DNA from: a virus
Length of the DNA: 21,005 nucleotides
Reading direction: 5' to 3' (one strand)
Virus record (IMG/VR): IMGVR_UViG_3300034374_004548
Coordinates: 1-21,005 of that record
The translations under genes and the position numbers were made by a program. Below, one piece after another: positions 2,891 through 10,701 of the stretch. Under the pieces are notes generated by a model. It did not search any database, had not been told where the DNA came from, and worked only from the letters and a program-made list of their open reading frames with translations. Numbering within the stretch: position 1 is the stretch's first letter; the number at the start of each line of letters is the position of its first letter.

Positions 2891-2898
2891 TATATTTG
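2891..2898 (+). promoter_or_regulatory. Bacteroidota-type -7 box with no gene directly behind it
   Basis: TATATTTG at 2891-2898 matches TANNTTTG and begins right after the previous stop. At the position where the other such promoters have ATG, this one reads GTGTAA, so no protein can start there. No clear TTTG -33 element is seen. It probably drives the structured RNA at about 2903-2998. Confidence 0.5.
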
Positions 2899-2902
2899 TA
2901 GT

Positions 2903-2998
2903 GTAAACAACAACCAAGAGAGAGTTGGTTAAGTTTAAAGATATTGGGTCGGTGTGGTTAGATGTCTCTCTCACGTCTAACTGCCTCGACCTTTTTTT
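2903..2998 (+). ncRNA. candidate structured small RNA or leader with two complementary-loop hairpins
   Basis: Hairpin 1 has stem AACCAA/TTGGTT (2912-2917, 2925-2930) and loop GAGAGAG (2918-2924). Hairpin 2 has an outer stem GGTCG/CGACC (2947-2951, 2987-2991), an inner 8-bp stem GTTAGATG/CGTCTAAC with one G-T pair (2957-2964, 2974-2981) and loop TCTCTCTCA (2965-2973), followed by seven T. CTCTCTC of loop 2 is the exact complement of loop 1, so the loops could kiss. Loop 2 (2966-2973) also complements TGAGAGAG at 3003-3010, which overlaps the start codon of the next gene. The 5' end near 2903 is inferred from the promoter box. Confidence 0.6.
2947..2998 (+). terminator. rho-independent terminator ending 3 bases before the next ATG
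   Basis: The long hairpin 2947-2991 is followed directly by TTTTTTT at 2992-2998, the standard intrinsic terminator form. The ATG of the replication gene is at 3002, so a terminated transcript excludes that gene and a read-through transcript includes it. This geometry fits either a small-RNA end or an attenuator. Confidence 0.7.
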
Positions 2999-3001
2999 AT
3001 T

Positions 3002-3589
3002 ATGAGAGAGTCAATGATAATTTACCGCTCGTTCTATGATGCCATCAAGGAACTTGAGCCAACACACCAGGCAGAAGTTTGGAAAGCCGTCTTTGAGTAT
3101 GGTCTAAACAAAAAGGACATTAAGCTGAAAGGCTTACCTGCTACAATTTTTACTTTAATTAAACCACAGTTAGATGCTAACATTCGCAAGTATGAAAATG
3201 GATCTAAAGGTGGTCGTCCTAAAAAGCAAAAAGAAACCAAAGAGAAACCTAAACAAAACCTAAAAGAAACCAAAGAAGAACCTAATGTAAATGATAATCA
3301 AAATGATAATAAAAATGAATCGTTTGAAAAGGTGTGGGCTGCTTATGGTAGAAAAGGTAACAAGCAGACAAGTGAACAGAAATGGTTTAAATTAAAACCT
3401 AAAGAACGTGAGGAGATAGAAAAGCATATACCACGTTATATTAACAACCACAAGATCAACGACAAGTTAAACTTCGTTCCACACTTTACAACCTACCTTA
3501 ACCAACGCAGATGGGAAGACGAGTTGCCTTACCAAGAAATTAACAATAAATTTGAACTCAAAAATTTAGCGACATTAGATGATGATTGA
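3002..3589 (+). CDS. helicase-loader-like replication initiation protein (DUF6291-type N-terminus)
   Basis: A 195-residue, two-domain protein. Residues 1-72 (MRESMIIYRSFYDAIKEL to NGSKGGRPKK) match the pattern I associate with DUF6291 phage proteins, which often begin M-R-(E/D)-S-x-(I/F)-(I/F)-Y-R-S-F; this supports the start at 3002 over the ATG at 3014. A charged Lys/Glu/Asn linker spans about 73-105. Residues 107-175 (FEKVWAAYGRKGNK to HFTTYLNQRRWEDE) resemble the C-terminal domain of phage DnaD/DnaT-like replication proteins. The gene overlaps the DnaB-type helicase gene by 11 bases, so the product probably loads that helicase at the phage origin; this role is inferred. Its start codon lies 3 bases behind a terminator and can pair with the upstream RNA loop. 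Confidence 0.75.
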   Translation: MRESMIIYRSFYDAIKELEPTHQAEVWKAVFEYGLNKKDIKLKGLPATIFTLIKPQLDANIRKYENGSKGGRPKKQKETKEKPKQNLKETKEEPNVNDNQNDNKNESFEKVWAAYGRKGNKQTSEQKWFKLKPKEREEIEKHIPRYINNHKINDKLNFVPHFTTYLNQRRWEDELPYQEINNKFELKNLATLDDD

Positions 3590-4787
3590 ACAGAACTTAC
3601 TTTCAGCAATACTATCAAGCGACTATGCCAAGACATTCCTACCTAAACTAAATCCTGATTGGTTTACTGGATGGCACAAAGGTTTAGTCAGAACGATGCA
3701 AGATATGTATCAGCATAACGAACCTATCGCACTGCACACCGTTTATACTTACCATAAGGATAGAGCAAAGGACATAGGGTTTTTGATTAATGCATACGTT
3801 ACCGATAAGACGATTAACAATGACATACTCGCACTTGAGATTAATTACAAGCATAAGCAACTTTTAAATCAGCTCGGACAAATCGGAACTGATTGGGACT
3901 TATCCAAGATTCAAAACTTTTTAGAACAGATAAACCACGACTCAAGGATTACACTTTCAAATGAGGTGCAATCAATTAGTGAGGTAATGGGAAAGAAGAT
4001 TGATGAGATTGAGGAAAGGATTAAGTCAGGTAACAAAATGAAGGGGCTTCAAACAGGGTGGAGAACGCTTGACAAATATCTTGGAGGGTGGAATAAAGGA
4101 AACCTTGTTATAGTAGGTGGTAGACCTGGTATGGGAAAGAGTGCATTGGGGTTAAACATTTGTCGTGATGGTATGCAGTTTAACAAGTATCTATTCGTAT
4201 CGGTTGAGATGAGTGCAGATGAGTTAGCCGAAAGGATGTTAGCCGATATGACGAATATTGAAAATAGCAAGATAAGAAATGCCAATGTAAACGAGATTGA
4301 TTTGAGGAGAATGGTTGACTCTTTAAACGATGCAGAATTTGATATCATTGATACAAAGGATAACAACATTTACAACATTATTTCCTTGATTAAGATACAC
4401 CGTGCGAAGTTTGGTTTAGACGTTGTTGTAATCGACTACCTTCAGAAGTTAAACGCTGGTGGTAAAGATGCAAGGAGTAACGTGAGCAATGCAAGTACTG
4501 CTTTGAAAAACCTTGCGAGAGAATTAGGTATAACGGTTATCGCATTAGCACAGTTGAATAGAGATGGCAAGAACGCAAGACCAGAACTAACCGAGTTAAA
4601 AGAAAGCGGACAGATAGAGCAAGACGCAGACTGTGTACTATTTCCTTTTAGACCAAGTTACTATGAGGACATCAAACCCGAGATTGAAGATGCCGTTGTA
4701 ATCATTGCAAAAAATAGACACGGTAGATTGTGTGACATACCTTGCACTTTCGAGGGTAAATTTACAAGATATAGAGAAGCATTATGA
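3579..4787 (+). CDS. dnaB: DnaB-like replicative helicase
   Basis: A 402-residue replicative helicase of the DnaB/RecA-fold type. The N-terminal ~150 residues are a shortened helical domain. The motor shows Walker A GRPGMGKS (181-188), a catalytic Glu in SVEMS (208-212), Walker B VVVIDYLQ (282-289), a sensor-like ALAQLNR (322-328), LKESGQIEQDADCVLF (340-355) and the arginine-finger-type KNRHGR near the end. It would unwind the phage replication fork as a hexamer. It is somewhat shorter than bacterial DnaB, as is usual in phages. The ATG at 3579 overlaps the loader gene by 11 bases (an in-frame ATG also lies at 3582), and its stop overlaps the methyltransferase start (ATGA). Confidence 0.92.
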   Translation: MMIEQNLLSAILSSDYAKTFLPKLNPDWFTGWHKGLVRTMQDMYQHNEPIALHTVYTYHKDRAKDIGFLINAYVTDKTINNDILALEINYKHKQLLNQLGQIGTDWDLSKIQNFLEQINHDSRITLSNEVQSISEVMGKKIDEIEERIKSGNKMKGLQTGWRTLDKYLGGWNKGNLVIVGGRPGMGKSALGLNICRDGMQFNKYLFVSVEMSADELAERMLADMTNIENSKIRNANVNEIDLRRMVDSLNDAEFDIIDTKDNNIYNIISLIKIHRAKFGLDVVVIDYLQKLNAGGKDARSNVSNASTALKNLARELGITVIALAQLNRDGKNARPELTELKESGQIEQDADCVLFPFRPSYYEDIKPEIEDAVVIIAKNRHGRLCDIPCTFEGKFTRYREAL

Positions 4788-5557
4788 TACACATAAGTCT
4801 ATTTAGTGGGATTGGGGGCTTTGACCTTGCATCGCATTGGATGGGATGGAAAAATTATGTTAGTTGCGAAATAAACGAATTTGCAAATAAGATACTTGAA
4901 TATCATTTCCCTGATGCATATCACCACAGAGATATAACGACATTAACATATGACACAATTAACACTGAACTTACAAGGAGATTTGGAAGCCACTGGAGAA
5001 ACGATGAGATCATCGTCACTGGTGGCTTCCCGTAACTATGCCAACCGTTCTCAATGGCAGGAAAAAGAAAAGGAACAGAAGACGAACGCTATCTATGGGG
5101 AGAGATGCTTCGAGCAATTCAAGAAATTAAACCCACATACGTCATCGCAGAAAATGTATTTGGTATCACGAATATTGATGGCGGATTGGTTTTCGAGCAG
5201 GTGTGCCTTGACTTGGAAAATGAAGGGTACGAAATTCAGCCGTTTGTACTTCCAGCTGCATCCAAAAACGCTCCGCACCGAAGGGATAGAGTCTGGTTTA
5301 TTGCTACCAACTCCAACTTGTCAGGATGCAAAAATGAAAGAGAACAGTCCAAGTCAGCAACACAAAATAAACGAATTGAGTATAGCAGTGGCAGGTGGGA
5401 GCAGTTCCCAACTCAACCCCCGATTTGTAGCGGAGATGATGGGCTTCCCACCGAATTGGACGGAATTACCTTTTCAAAGTGGAGATCAGAATCAATCAAA
5501 GGATACGGAAATGCAATAGTTCCACAAGTGGCATACGAAATATTTAAACAGTTATGA
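4784..5557 (+). pseudogene. dcm: C5 cytosine DNA methyltransferase interrupted by an in-frame TAA in the PCQ motif
   Basis: One frame of 257 codons encodes a Dcm-type methyltransferase: motif I FSGIGGF, motif II SCEINEFA, motif IV TGGFP, ENV of motif VI, NAPHRRDRVWFIA (motif VIII) and GNAIVPQ (motif X). Between GGFP and the catalytic CQPFS sits TAA CTA (5033-5038), so the frame reads P-stop-L-C. Everything before and after is in the same frame, so the change is a 6-base insertion. The result is an 83-residue N-terminal piece and, from the ATG at 5054, a piece lacking the catalytic Cys. A working enzyme would need stop read-through and a loop two residues longer. The target-recognition region is short. 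A second frame (4950-5519) covers the same bases. Sequencing or assembly error is possible. Confidence 0.8.
4950..5519 (+). CDS. overprinted second-frame protein inside the methyltransferase gene
   Basis: An uninterrupted 189-residue frame, +1 relative to the methyltransferase frame, running from ATG 4950 to TAG 5519. Its second half has sequence resembling conserved phage proteins linked to Dcm genes: RCALTWKMKGTKFSRLYFQL, SGLLLPTPTCQDA and LNPRFVAEMMGFPPNWTELP. The LTWK, LPTPT and MGFP-W-L blocks look like those found in C-terminal parts of phage cytosine methyltransferase annotations, which I know from memory and cannot check here. If real, the bases at 5054-5519 encode two proteins at once. 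The 6-base insertion that stops the methyltransferase frame adds only Asn-Tyr here. Function unknown; a partner, or an alternative C-terminus reached by frameshift, is possible. Confidence 0.5.
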   Translation: MTQLTLNLQGDLEATGETMRSSSLVASRNYANRSQWQEKEKEQKTNAIYGERCFEQFKKLNPHTSSQKMYLVSRILMADWFSSRCALTWKMKGTKFSRLYFQLHPKTLRTEGIESGLLLPTPTCQDAKMKENSPSQQHKINELSIAVAGGSSSQLNPRFVAEMMGFPPNWTELPFQSGDQNQSKDTEMQ

Positions 5558-5994
5558 ATTACGAATATGAATACATTGTGTTGAAAGCACAACACACCAA
5601 ATTAAAAAACAGAAGCAGTGCTAAAATATCTGCTTTAGAGAATGAAATTAAACGGTTACGAAATCAAATAGCAAAACCATTCAAGCCAAAGATGAGCAAT
5701 GCAACTATGCAAGAGGTGTTAGATGCAGTATGCCACGCAACTGGTATACTACCTGATGAGATTATCTCTAAATGTAGGAAGATAGAATATGTTAGGGCAA
5801 GGCATCTATTCTGCTATGTATGTGCAAGGCATTTGAGATTGCCACTAACCAAGATAGGGTTGTTCATTGAACGTGACCATTCATCGGTAATACACGCAAG
5901 ACAGCAGTACCAAGATTTTTTAGATATGGGTTACCAGCCTGAAGTTTCATACTATAACCACACCATTGAGTCACTACATCTTAACCTTGTGTAA
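5554..5994 (+). CDS. stand-alone DnaA domain IV-like DNA-binding protein
   Basis: A 146-residue protein. Residues 8-40 are a charged, probably coiled-coil helix (ISALENEIKRLRNQIA). Residues 50-120 match the C-terminal DNA-binding domain of DnaA: ATGILPDEIISKCRKIEYVR, then a helix-turn-helix and the DnaA-box signature ERDHSSVIHA (106-115), which in DnaA contacts the DNA box. There is no AAA+ ATPase domain. It may bind the phage origin or capture host DnaA boxes; the neighbouring loader and helicase genes favour a role in replication initiation, but transcriptional control is also possible. It starts at an ATGA overlap with the methyltransferase stop. Confidence 0.8.
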   Translation: MNYEYEYIVLKAQHTKLKNRSSAKISALENEIKRLRNQIAKPFKPKMSNATMQEVLDAVCHATGILPDEIISKCRKIEYVRARHLFCYVCARHLRLPLTKIGLFIERDHSSVIHARQQYQDFLDMGYQPEVSYYNHTIESLHLNLV

Positions 5995-9688: not shown

Positions 9689-10701
9689 TGAAGATTCTCT
9701 CTCTCTTTGACGGAATGAATGGAGTGTCCTTTCACCGATTGTACACTCCACTCGCCCGACTTCAAGTTGACTATGGAGTAACCGTTGACGTATCTCAAAA
9801 AGCAAAGGAATGGGGTGACCTTGAGTTTGAAAAGTACGATGTGGTTGTCTTCAATCGTTGGTTAGGTGGTTTGCAATATAACATACTTCCTATCCTGGCT
9901 AAAAAGAAGATTCCCTTTGTGGTTGACGTTGATGATTATTGGGTAGTCCCAAAGTACAACCCTGCTCACAAGTTTTATCGTGCTTACATAAAGAATGCAG
10001 TCAAGGACGCTATGTATTATGCCGATGCCGTAATGACAACTACACCACAGTTAGCAGGTCAAGTCAAAGAGTACAATGAGAACGTTCACATTATACCCAA
10101 TGCTTTAGACCTTAATCAAAGCCAATGGAAAGCAGAGAAGGAGCATCCATTCACATTAGGGTGGGTAGGTGGCTTATCTCACGTTGAGGATTTAAAACTA
10201 TTGAGCGAACAGATAGCACCTATTTGTGAGAAGTACAATGCAAGATTTTTGATGTGTGGTTATCACAACGGAGCAGAAGAGTGGATAGCAATGGAGAAGT
10301 CAATCACTGGCACTACTCCAGATAAAAGACCTGATTGGTTTGATGTAAGACAAGGCACACGAGCTGATAGATATGGTGAGTACTATTCAGAGATTGACAT
10401 AGCATTAGCACCACTTACACGAACTAACTTTAACCGACACAAGTCAGAGTTAAAAATCGTTGAGGCAGCTGCATACAAGTTACCGATATTTGTTTCCAAC
10501 GTTGAACCTTACACGAATCACAGAAATAATTTAGGTTGCTTCTTTGTCAACAACAACGATTGGTCAGAGATAGGCAAACTGATTGAGTCAGGTAAGTCAA
10601 AGCAGATAGGTGAGATTAACTACAACTATTGCAAAGAACATCACGATATTAAACAGATAAACGAAAAGAGATTAGCAGTTCTTCAGAGTGTAACAAGGTG
10701 A
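9688..10701 (+). CDS. GT-B fold glycosyltransferase (GT4-like)
   Basis: A 337-residue protein with the layout of a retaining GT-B glycosyltransferase. The N-terminal half shows FHRLYTPLARL (15-25), VVDVDDYW (78-85), ADAVMTTTPQL (112-122) and IIPNALD (135-141). The C-terminal Rossmann half shows FTLGWVGGLSHVEDL (155-169) and the nucleotide-sugar-binding helix KSELKIVEAAAYKLPIFVSN (252-271), with the two spaced Glu of the family. It would transfer a sugar from an activated donor; the target could be modified phage DNA, a virion protein or the host surface. It lies next to the large terminase, and a cytosine methyltransferase locus is present, so a DNA- or capsid-glycosylation role is conceivable but unproven. 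Confidence 0.82.
   Translation: MKILSLFDGMNGVSFHRLYTPLARLQVDYGVTVDVSQKAKEWGDLEFEKYDVVVFNRWLGGLQYNILPILAKKKIPFVVDVDDYWVVPKYNPAHKFYRAYIKNAVKDAMYYADAVMTTTPQLAGQVKEYNENVHIIPNALDLNQSQWKAEKEHPFTLGWVGGLSHVEDLKLLSEQIAPICEKYNARFLMCGYHNGAEEWIAMEKSITGTTPDKRPDWFDVRQGTRADRYGEYYSEIDIALAPLTRTNFNRHKSELKIVEAAAYKLPIFVSNVEPYTNHRNNLGCFFVNNNDWSEIGKLIESGKSKQIGEINYNYCKEHHDIKQINEKRLAVLQSVTR

Follow-up and report, generated by a model that had tools for sequence, protein, structure and literature searches.

The window, the whole stretch of 21,005 nucleotides analysed here, is a linear 21-kb virus record in which a gap carrying a predicted RNA is flanked by a ParB-like gene and a DUF6291 gene, with a gene for a DnaB-like helicase next (Table 1). 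The coordinates given by a first-pass annotation for the promoter box, stems, loops, T7 and start-codon match were all exact when checked base by base. Promoter, leader, terminator hairpin and U-run are followed by a gene on the same strand, which is the layout of an attenuator. The RNA is predicted to fold into two hairpins at -32.5 kcal/mol (z = -2.5), and only 3 of 200 shuffled sequences folded as well or better. A covariance model, R1, matched positions 2898-2998 with 90.7 bits (E 9.7e-15), the window itself being part of the R1 alignment. Beyond the helicase gene, positions 4784-5557 hold a cytosine-type DNA methyltransferase gene in which a stop splits GGFP from the in-frame LCQPFS just before the catalytic motif, representing either a broken gene or two pieces, and positions 5554-5994 encode a phage protein with a DnaA C-terminal DNA-binding domain (PF08299).

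Table 1. Features of the leader RNA and the adjoining genes, in window coordinates
Feature	Position	Strand	Basis or remark
TATATTTG promoter box, Bacteroidota-type -7 (TAnnTTTG)	2891..2898	+	sequence
Predicted leader / small RNA, ~96 nt	2903..2998	+	model R1 match 2898-2998
P0 outer helix, UAAAC 2904-2908 / GUUUA 2933-2937	2904..2937	+	fold
Hairpin 1 (P1), AACCAA 2912-2917 / UUGGUU 2925-2930	2912..2930	+	fold, covariation
Loop 1 GAGAGAG, complementary to loop 2	2918..2924	+	sequence; at least 34 loop-1 strings family-wide
Linker AAGUUUAAAGAUAUU	2931..2945	+	length conserved (mostly 15-19 nt); sequence kept within one subgroup only
Hairpin 2 (P2), 19-bp intrinsic-terminator hairpin	2946..2992	+	fold; compensatory changes along most of stem
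Loop 2 CUCUCUC, tip of terminator hairpin, complementary to loop 1	2966..2972	+	sequence
U7 tract of terminator	2992..2998	+	sequence
First operon gene: DUF6291 domain and replication-initiation-like C-terminal part	3002..3589	+	Pfam PF19808; PHROG replication initiation / primosomal families
DnaB-like replicative helicase	3579..4787	+	Pfam DnaB_C E 4.9e-68; phrog_19

A family of leader RNAs in phage genomes

The architecture is common to at least ~74 non-identical relatives, in the order TAnnTTTG box, hairpin 1, linker of 13-21 nt, terminator hairpin of 17-19 bp, U-run and start codon; loop 1 is usually 6-9 nt long, and loops of 7 nt tend towards GUNNNAG. The same RNA and promoter pattern lie behind an unrelated upstream gene in the close relatives L007 and L008, and loci fetched with the helicase protein have the same layout with other loops, namely GGTCAG/CTGACC (L018, L019), GTGGAAG/CTTCCAC (L020) and GTGAAGG/CCTTCAC (L021); L022-L026 carry GTGGGAG or GTGGAAG with the partner CTTCCAC. 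The outer helix P0 is frequent among relatives and is missing, as judged by eye from the alignment, in L022/L023, L049, L051, L092 and L126.

Viral contigs were scanned with a linker pattern (AAAGATATTTGCC, a spacer and T6) that ignored the loops, yielding at least 44 members, at least 35 of them with distinct loop contexts; a scan by partial linker, in which the U-run was not required, returned no member without one. Another scan used neither linker nor loop sequence: eight helicases were aligned, giving 80 loci, and the 2 kb upstream of 60 of these were examined for a terminator hairpin whose loop complements, over 6 nt or more, that of the hairpin just before it. This arrangement was present at 29 of the 60 DnaB helicase loci, compared with 2 hits in the reverse-strand control (6-nt, low complexity) and 0 in the downstream control, and a few of the 29 contigs overlap the earlier set (e.g. 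L296, L304). In the linker-free set the sequence of the linker varies and its length, 13-21 nt, does not. The conserved AAAGAUAUUUGCC linker was rejected as the key element, since the first set had been chosen by it and the linker-free scan revealed variation. Of the 43 records matched by model R1, 42 contained a single copy and the remaining one, L138, two.

The window had no match in Rfam 15 at the gathering score, and a search of five loci at E ≤ 1 returned nothing but an opposite-strand mir-9449 match (E 0.97); no paper describing such an RNA was found in a literature search. Among the matches listed in bacterial genome contigs, none has the hairpins, pattern matches in 4 of 400 genomes of Flavobacterium's family were all without them, and an R1 search of three Bacteroidota genomes gave nothing. 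With two class I members as Blast queries, no true member turned up among named phages, and the Riemerella and F. columnare phages with distantly related genes are without the leader. The leader is an undescribed family of structured phage RNAs, and its carriers are a large group of phages, mostly marine, with Bacteroidota as their probable hosts given the promoter type and the cultured members of a variant class.

In this variant, loop 1 is 14 nt long and its first 8 nt (GCUUCGAC or GCUCUGAC) are predicted to pair with the terminator loop. It is carried by L030, L127 and the cultured Flavobacterium phages snusmum6-1 and hattifnatt9-1, with L339 similar; in the two cultured phages, which were isolated on Flavobacterium sp. 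LMO6 and LMO9 (PMC7077304), the variant RNA precedes a helicase gene, its position being about 9708-9829 in MN812234.

Promoter, terminators and downstream genes

The promoter box that the first-pass annotation had noted ahead of the two hairpins is kept across the family, as TAnnTTTG was present in all 47 of the 47 members with enough sequence, against a chance of 0.028 per 31-nt window. Of 49 members, 39 have the box 35-48 nt ahead of the AAAGATATT-type linker and eight have it ~95-100 nt ahead, the other two losing the promoter region to the contig end. The eight are one clade (L029, L032, L043, L058, L064, L088, L107 and L280), in which an additional terminator-like hairpin (GAGGGGTAGTAACAACACCTGCTGCCTCTCTTTT and variants), ~30-95 nt ahead of the linker, separates the promoter from hairpin 1 and accounts for the greater distance, resulting in tandem terminators; the extra hairpin was read directly in five clade members (L029, L058, L064, L088 and L280). 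On the opposite strand, no conserved promoter of the TAnnTTTG type was found between 50 nt before the linker and 300 nt past the U-run. Predicted folds of the nascent RNA paired at least 5 nt of the terminator 5′ arm with upstream sequence in 33 of 74 members, with no consistent helix among the folds seen.

In every member whose ATG start can be read, 0-13 nt separate the end of the U-run from the first ATG, and L089 and L104 have no ATG at the expected position. The first genes are varied, comprising DUF6291 genes (MRES and MAENKKSF types), Lin1244-like, MQNTGQI-type, NUMOD4-HNH and GIY-YIG-like genes and small ORFs. A DnaB helicase 38-100% identical to that of the window follows 0.5-1.2 kb downstream in 39 contigs. 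The two leader copies of L138, on the reverse strand at ~6204 and ~9682, have different loops; one stands before a NUMOD4-HNH endonuclease gene (between ERF and YqaJ genes) and the other before a replication gene, so homing endonucleases may carry the leader RNA with them or capture it.

Covariation of stems and loops

The first-pass annotation had proposed a kissing-loop fold and had suggested an alignment of relatives with a covariance analysis as its check. RNAalifold on 40 sequences gave 21 base pairs, 19 of which have compensatory double changes, and all five P1 pairs covary; the CC/GG of stem 1 in the window, for example, is replaced by a compensated GC/GC in L007/L008. Complementarity of the loops is likewise kept in the relatives. 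When the longest complement to loop 2 was sought in the loop-1 region for 17 distinct loop-2 sequences, selected independently of the loops, it averaged 6.94 nt with the RNA's own loop 1 versus 3.48 nt for all cross pairings, and the highest mean in 2,000 permutations of the loop partners was 4.82 nt, far below 6.94. These 17 sequences, from the linker-pattern set, constitute the unbiased loop test, the linker-free set having been selected on complementarity. Pooling both sets gives 34 different strings for loop 1, of which a few represent a single type read at more than one length. The two loops have changed in concert, giving more than 30 matching versions, so the loop-loop pairing appears to be real; covariation in stems and loops alike strongly supports the kissing-loop fold.

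The GA/CT composition of the window's loops had raised the concern of chance pairing. This is ruled out by loop complementarity in relatives with unrelated loop sequences, and the concern about low complexity is removed because the loops of most relatives are non-repetitive (e.g. GGUCAG/CUGACC, GUUGCAG/CUGCAAC and GUCGAG/CUCGAC). Chance is not an explanation, since relatives preserve both hairpins by compensation and the loop complementarity with wholly different loops. At the level of sequence, these comparisons establish that the leader RNA is conserved and covaries, that it contains a loop-loop pair as well as a terminator, and that it is linked to replication operons.

Exchange of loop types between related genomes

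L013 and L014 have identical helicases and the loop types GTGGAAG versus GGTCAG, while the helicase of the window, with loop GAGAGAG, is 98% identical to theirs. L013 and L015 are 97.6% identical downstream, and the differences within the RNA are confined to stem-loop 1 and the upper half of hairpin 2. L007 and L008 carry the RNA of the window, yet their helicases are only 43% identical. On the helicase tree, 12 loop types require at least 19 changes, the minimum possible being 11. The loops behave as specificity alleles that can be exchanged, since genomes that are almost identical carry different types. Predicted pairing energies averaged -8.3 kcal/mol with the own partner, -1.7 across types and -2.9 for composition-shuffled loops, and the own partner was best in 12 of 12 types (one tie). 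Judged from the sequences and these energies, at least 34 mostly non-cross-pairing loop types are exchanged between related genomes. Plain recombination, with matching of the loops maintained in cis, could account for the exchange.

Complementarity of loop 2 to the start codon

Loop 2 had also been proposed to pair with the start of the next gene and repress its translation. The match is present in the window, where TGAGAGAG (3003-3010), over the ATG at 3002, complements loop 2, and a match of 7-8 nt is shared with seven relatives (L007, L008, L029, L032, L043, L064 and L107), all with a DUF6291 gene starting MRES. It is confined to the GAGAGAG lineage and missing in every other loop type and in the DUF6291 subgroup starting MAENKKSF; in the other 32 members the complementarity between loop 2 and the start region is 2.72 nt against a permutation mean of 2.96, with 998 of 1,000 permutations equal or higher, and even in L043 a synonymous GAG to GAA change weakens the pairing. 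Start-codon pairing was accordingly rejected as a family property, and translational repression by this route is extremely improbable. All MRES-type DUF6291 genes seen are paired with the GAGAGAG loop and vice versa (window, L029, L032, L043, L064 and L107), an association that may reflect linkage or a further role of loop 2 peculiar to this lineage.

Proposed mechanism and alternatives

The best overall explanation, to which we give an even chance when taken as a whole, is that the replication-operon leader is a transcription attenuator with built-in self-recognition. Its core, an attenuating leader, is likely. Most transcripts would stop at the U-run to give the ~96-nt RNA, and read-through would give the replication mRNA, while the two loops would pair within one RNA or between two. 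The terminated RNA of one genome copy would then contact, loop to loop, the leader being transcribed from another copy and favour termination, so that replication-gene expression would drop with rising copy number and a resident phage would repress only phages sharing its loop type. This action in trans is proposed because loop type appears to be under diversifying or self-matching selection, and we advance it tentatively, on the doubtful side of even. Against repression by a resident phage counts the origin of the cultured phages with the variant RNA, which are from a set isolated as virulent (PMC7077304). A rough geometric estimate, assuming 5-6 bp for stem 1, 7 bp for the kiss and 18-19 bp for the terminator stem, gives a straight stack of 76-87 Å and a linker reach of ~96-120 Å; since the reach exceeds the span, intramolecular kissing would be possible but tight, requiring P0 to open, and intermolecular kissing would be equally possible. 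Intramolecular kissing could make the free RNA inert in trans. A broader proposal, that the RNA alone confers self-recognition through dozens of loop types that do not pair with one another and are swapped in the manner of incompatibility or immunity alleles, and that the resident or first-arriving phage silences the replication genes of same-type newcomers and its own excess copies, is rather doubtful.

The first-pass annotation had left the choice between a free small RNA and an attenuator. The attenuator is favoured by the position of the U-run, which in almost all members ends immediately ahead of the first gene, by the DnaB helicases downstream and by the tandem terminators of one clade; the two may both be true at once, because the terminated leader would itself be the ~96-nt RNA. 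In the alternative of a stable phage small RNA, the kiss would fold or dimerise the RNA, which would act on other targets, and the downstream gene would use incomplete termination. The strong promoter box, terminator and compact fold would suit such an RNA, as would the members that precede other genes, e.g. an HNH endonuclease (L138) and small ORFs. It is nevertheless unlikely, as the terminator adjoins the first gene of the replication operon in nearly every member, a second terminator would be superfluous and the wider family has no fixed sequence to pair with a constant outside target. We likewise consider improbable a purely cis-acting switch, in which the kiss would either compete with the terminator of its own transcript or assist it, with folding speed or a factor from the phage or the host setting the outcome, and the loops would drift as long as they match. 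Covariation by itself requires only matching, and the conserved linker length is about enough to bridge the hairpins, but both loops are replaced wholesale between nearly identical genomes and cross-pairing is very low, which suggests that type identity matters. A structured leader beside replication genes could also be bound by the product of the first gene as autoregulation, or could modify RNA polymerase like HK022 put, and tandem terminators could call for antitermination; this is very unlikely, since the first genes differ in kind while the RNA stays, and the hairpin sequences are almost free to vary, which a fixed site for a protein or polymerase would not be.

Comparison with known systems

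Attenuation with self-recognition, if true, would make RNA-defined immunity groups conceivable in phages of probable Bacteroidota, and would place the replication control of a large metagenomic phage group under a testable RNA mechanism. The covariation is unusually clear and includes a tertiary loop-loop pair that ordinary secondary-structure models leave unscored, and the family provides a natural set of ~30 largely orthogonal kissing pairs for RNA design. In ColE1, RNA I and RNA II have 7-nt complementary hairpin loops in which changes create new specificities, and they are opposite-strand RNAs controlling a primer rather than a terminator. The leader resembles them in its complementary 7-nt loops and differs in that both loops are on the same strand and one caps a terminator. 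The Gifsy-1 leader IsrK is present both as a terminated small RNA and as a read-through mRNA, according to the passages on it in PMC4825925, which mention no comparable kissing terminator loop; its sequence is unrelated.

The nearest working models, by analogy, would be the pT181-type attenuators and the P4 CI RNA. With pT181-type plasmid attenuators the leader shares attenuation, loop-loop contact, a terminator just before the gene and orthogonality through loop changes (PMC4878617); pT181 has in addition an antisense RNA and an antiterminator helix, whereas the family described here has no conserved antisense promoter of the TAnnTTTG type. In the P4 system, as set out in the relevant passages of PMC4825925, a same-strand RNA derived from the leader pairs with complementary stretches of the leader (seqA/seqC) and causes termination before the replication genes. 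As in the P4 CI / P1 C4 type, the complementary segments described here lie on one transcript, action in trans being a proposal. In contrast to P4 CI as portrayed there, the RNA consists of two plain hairpins, one of which is the terminator, with no separate processed antisense segment, and it occurs in many loop alleles in probable Bacteroidota phages.
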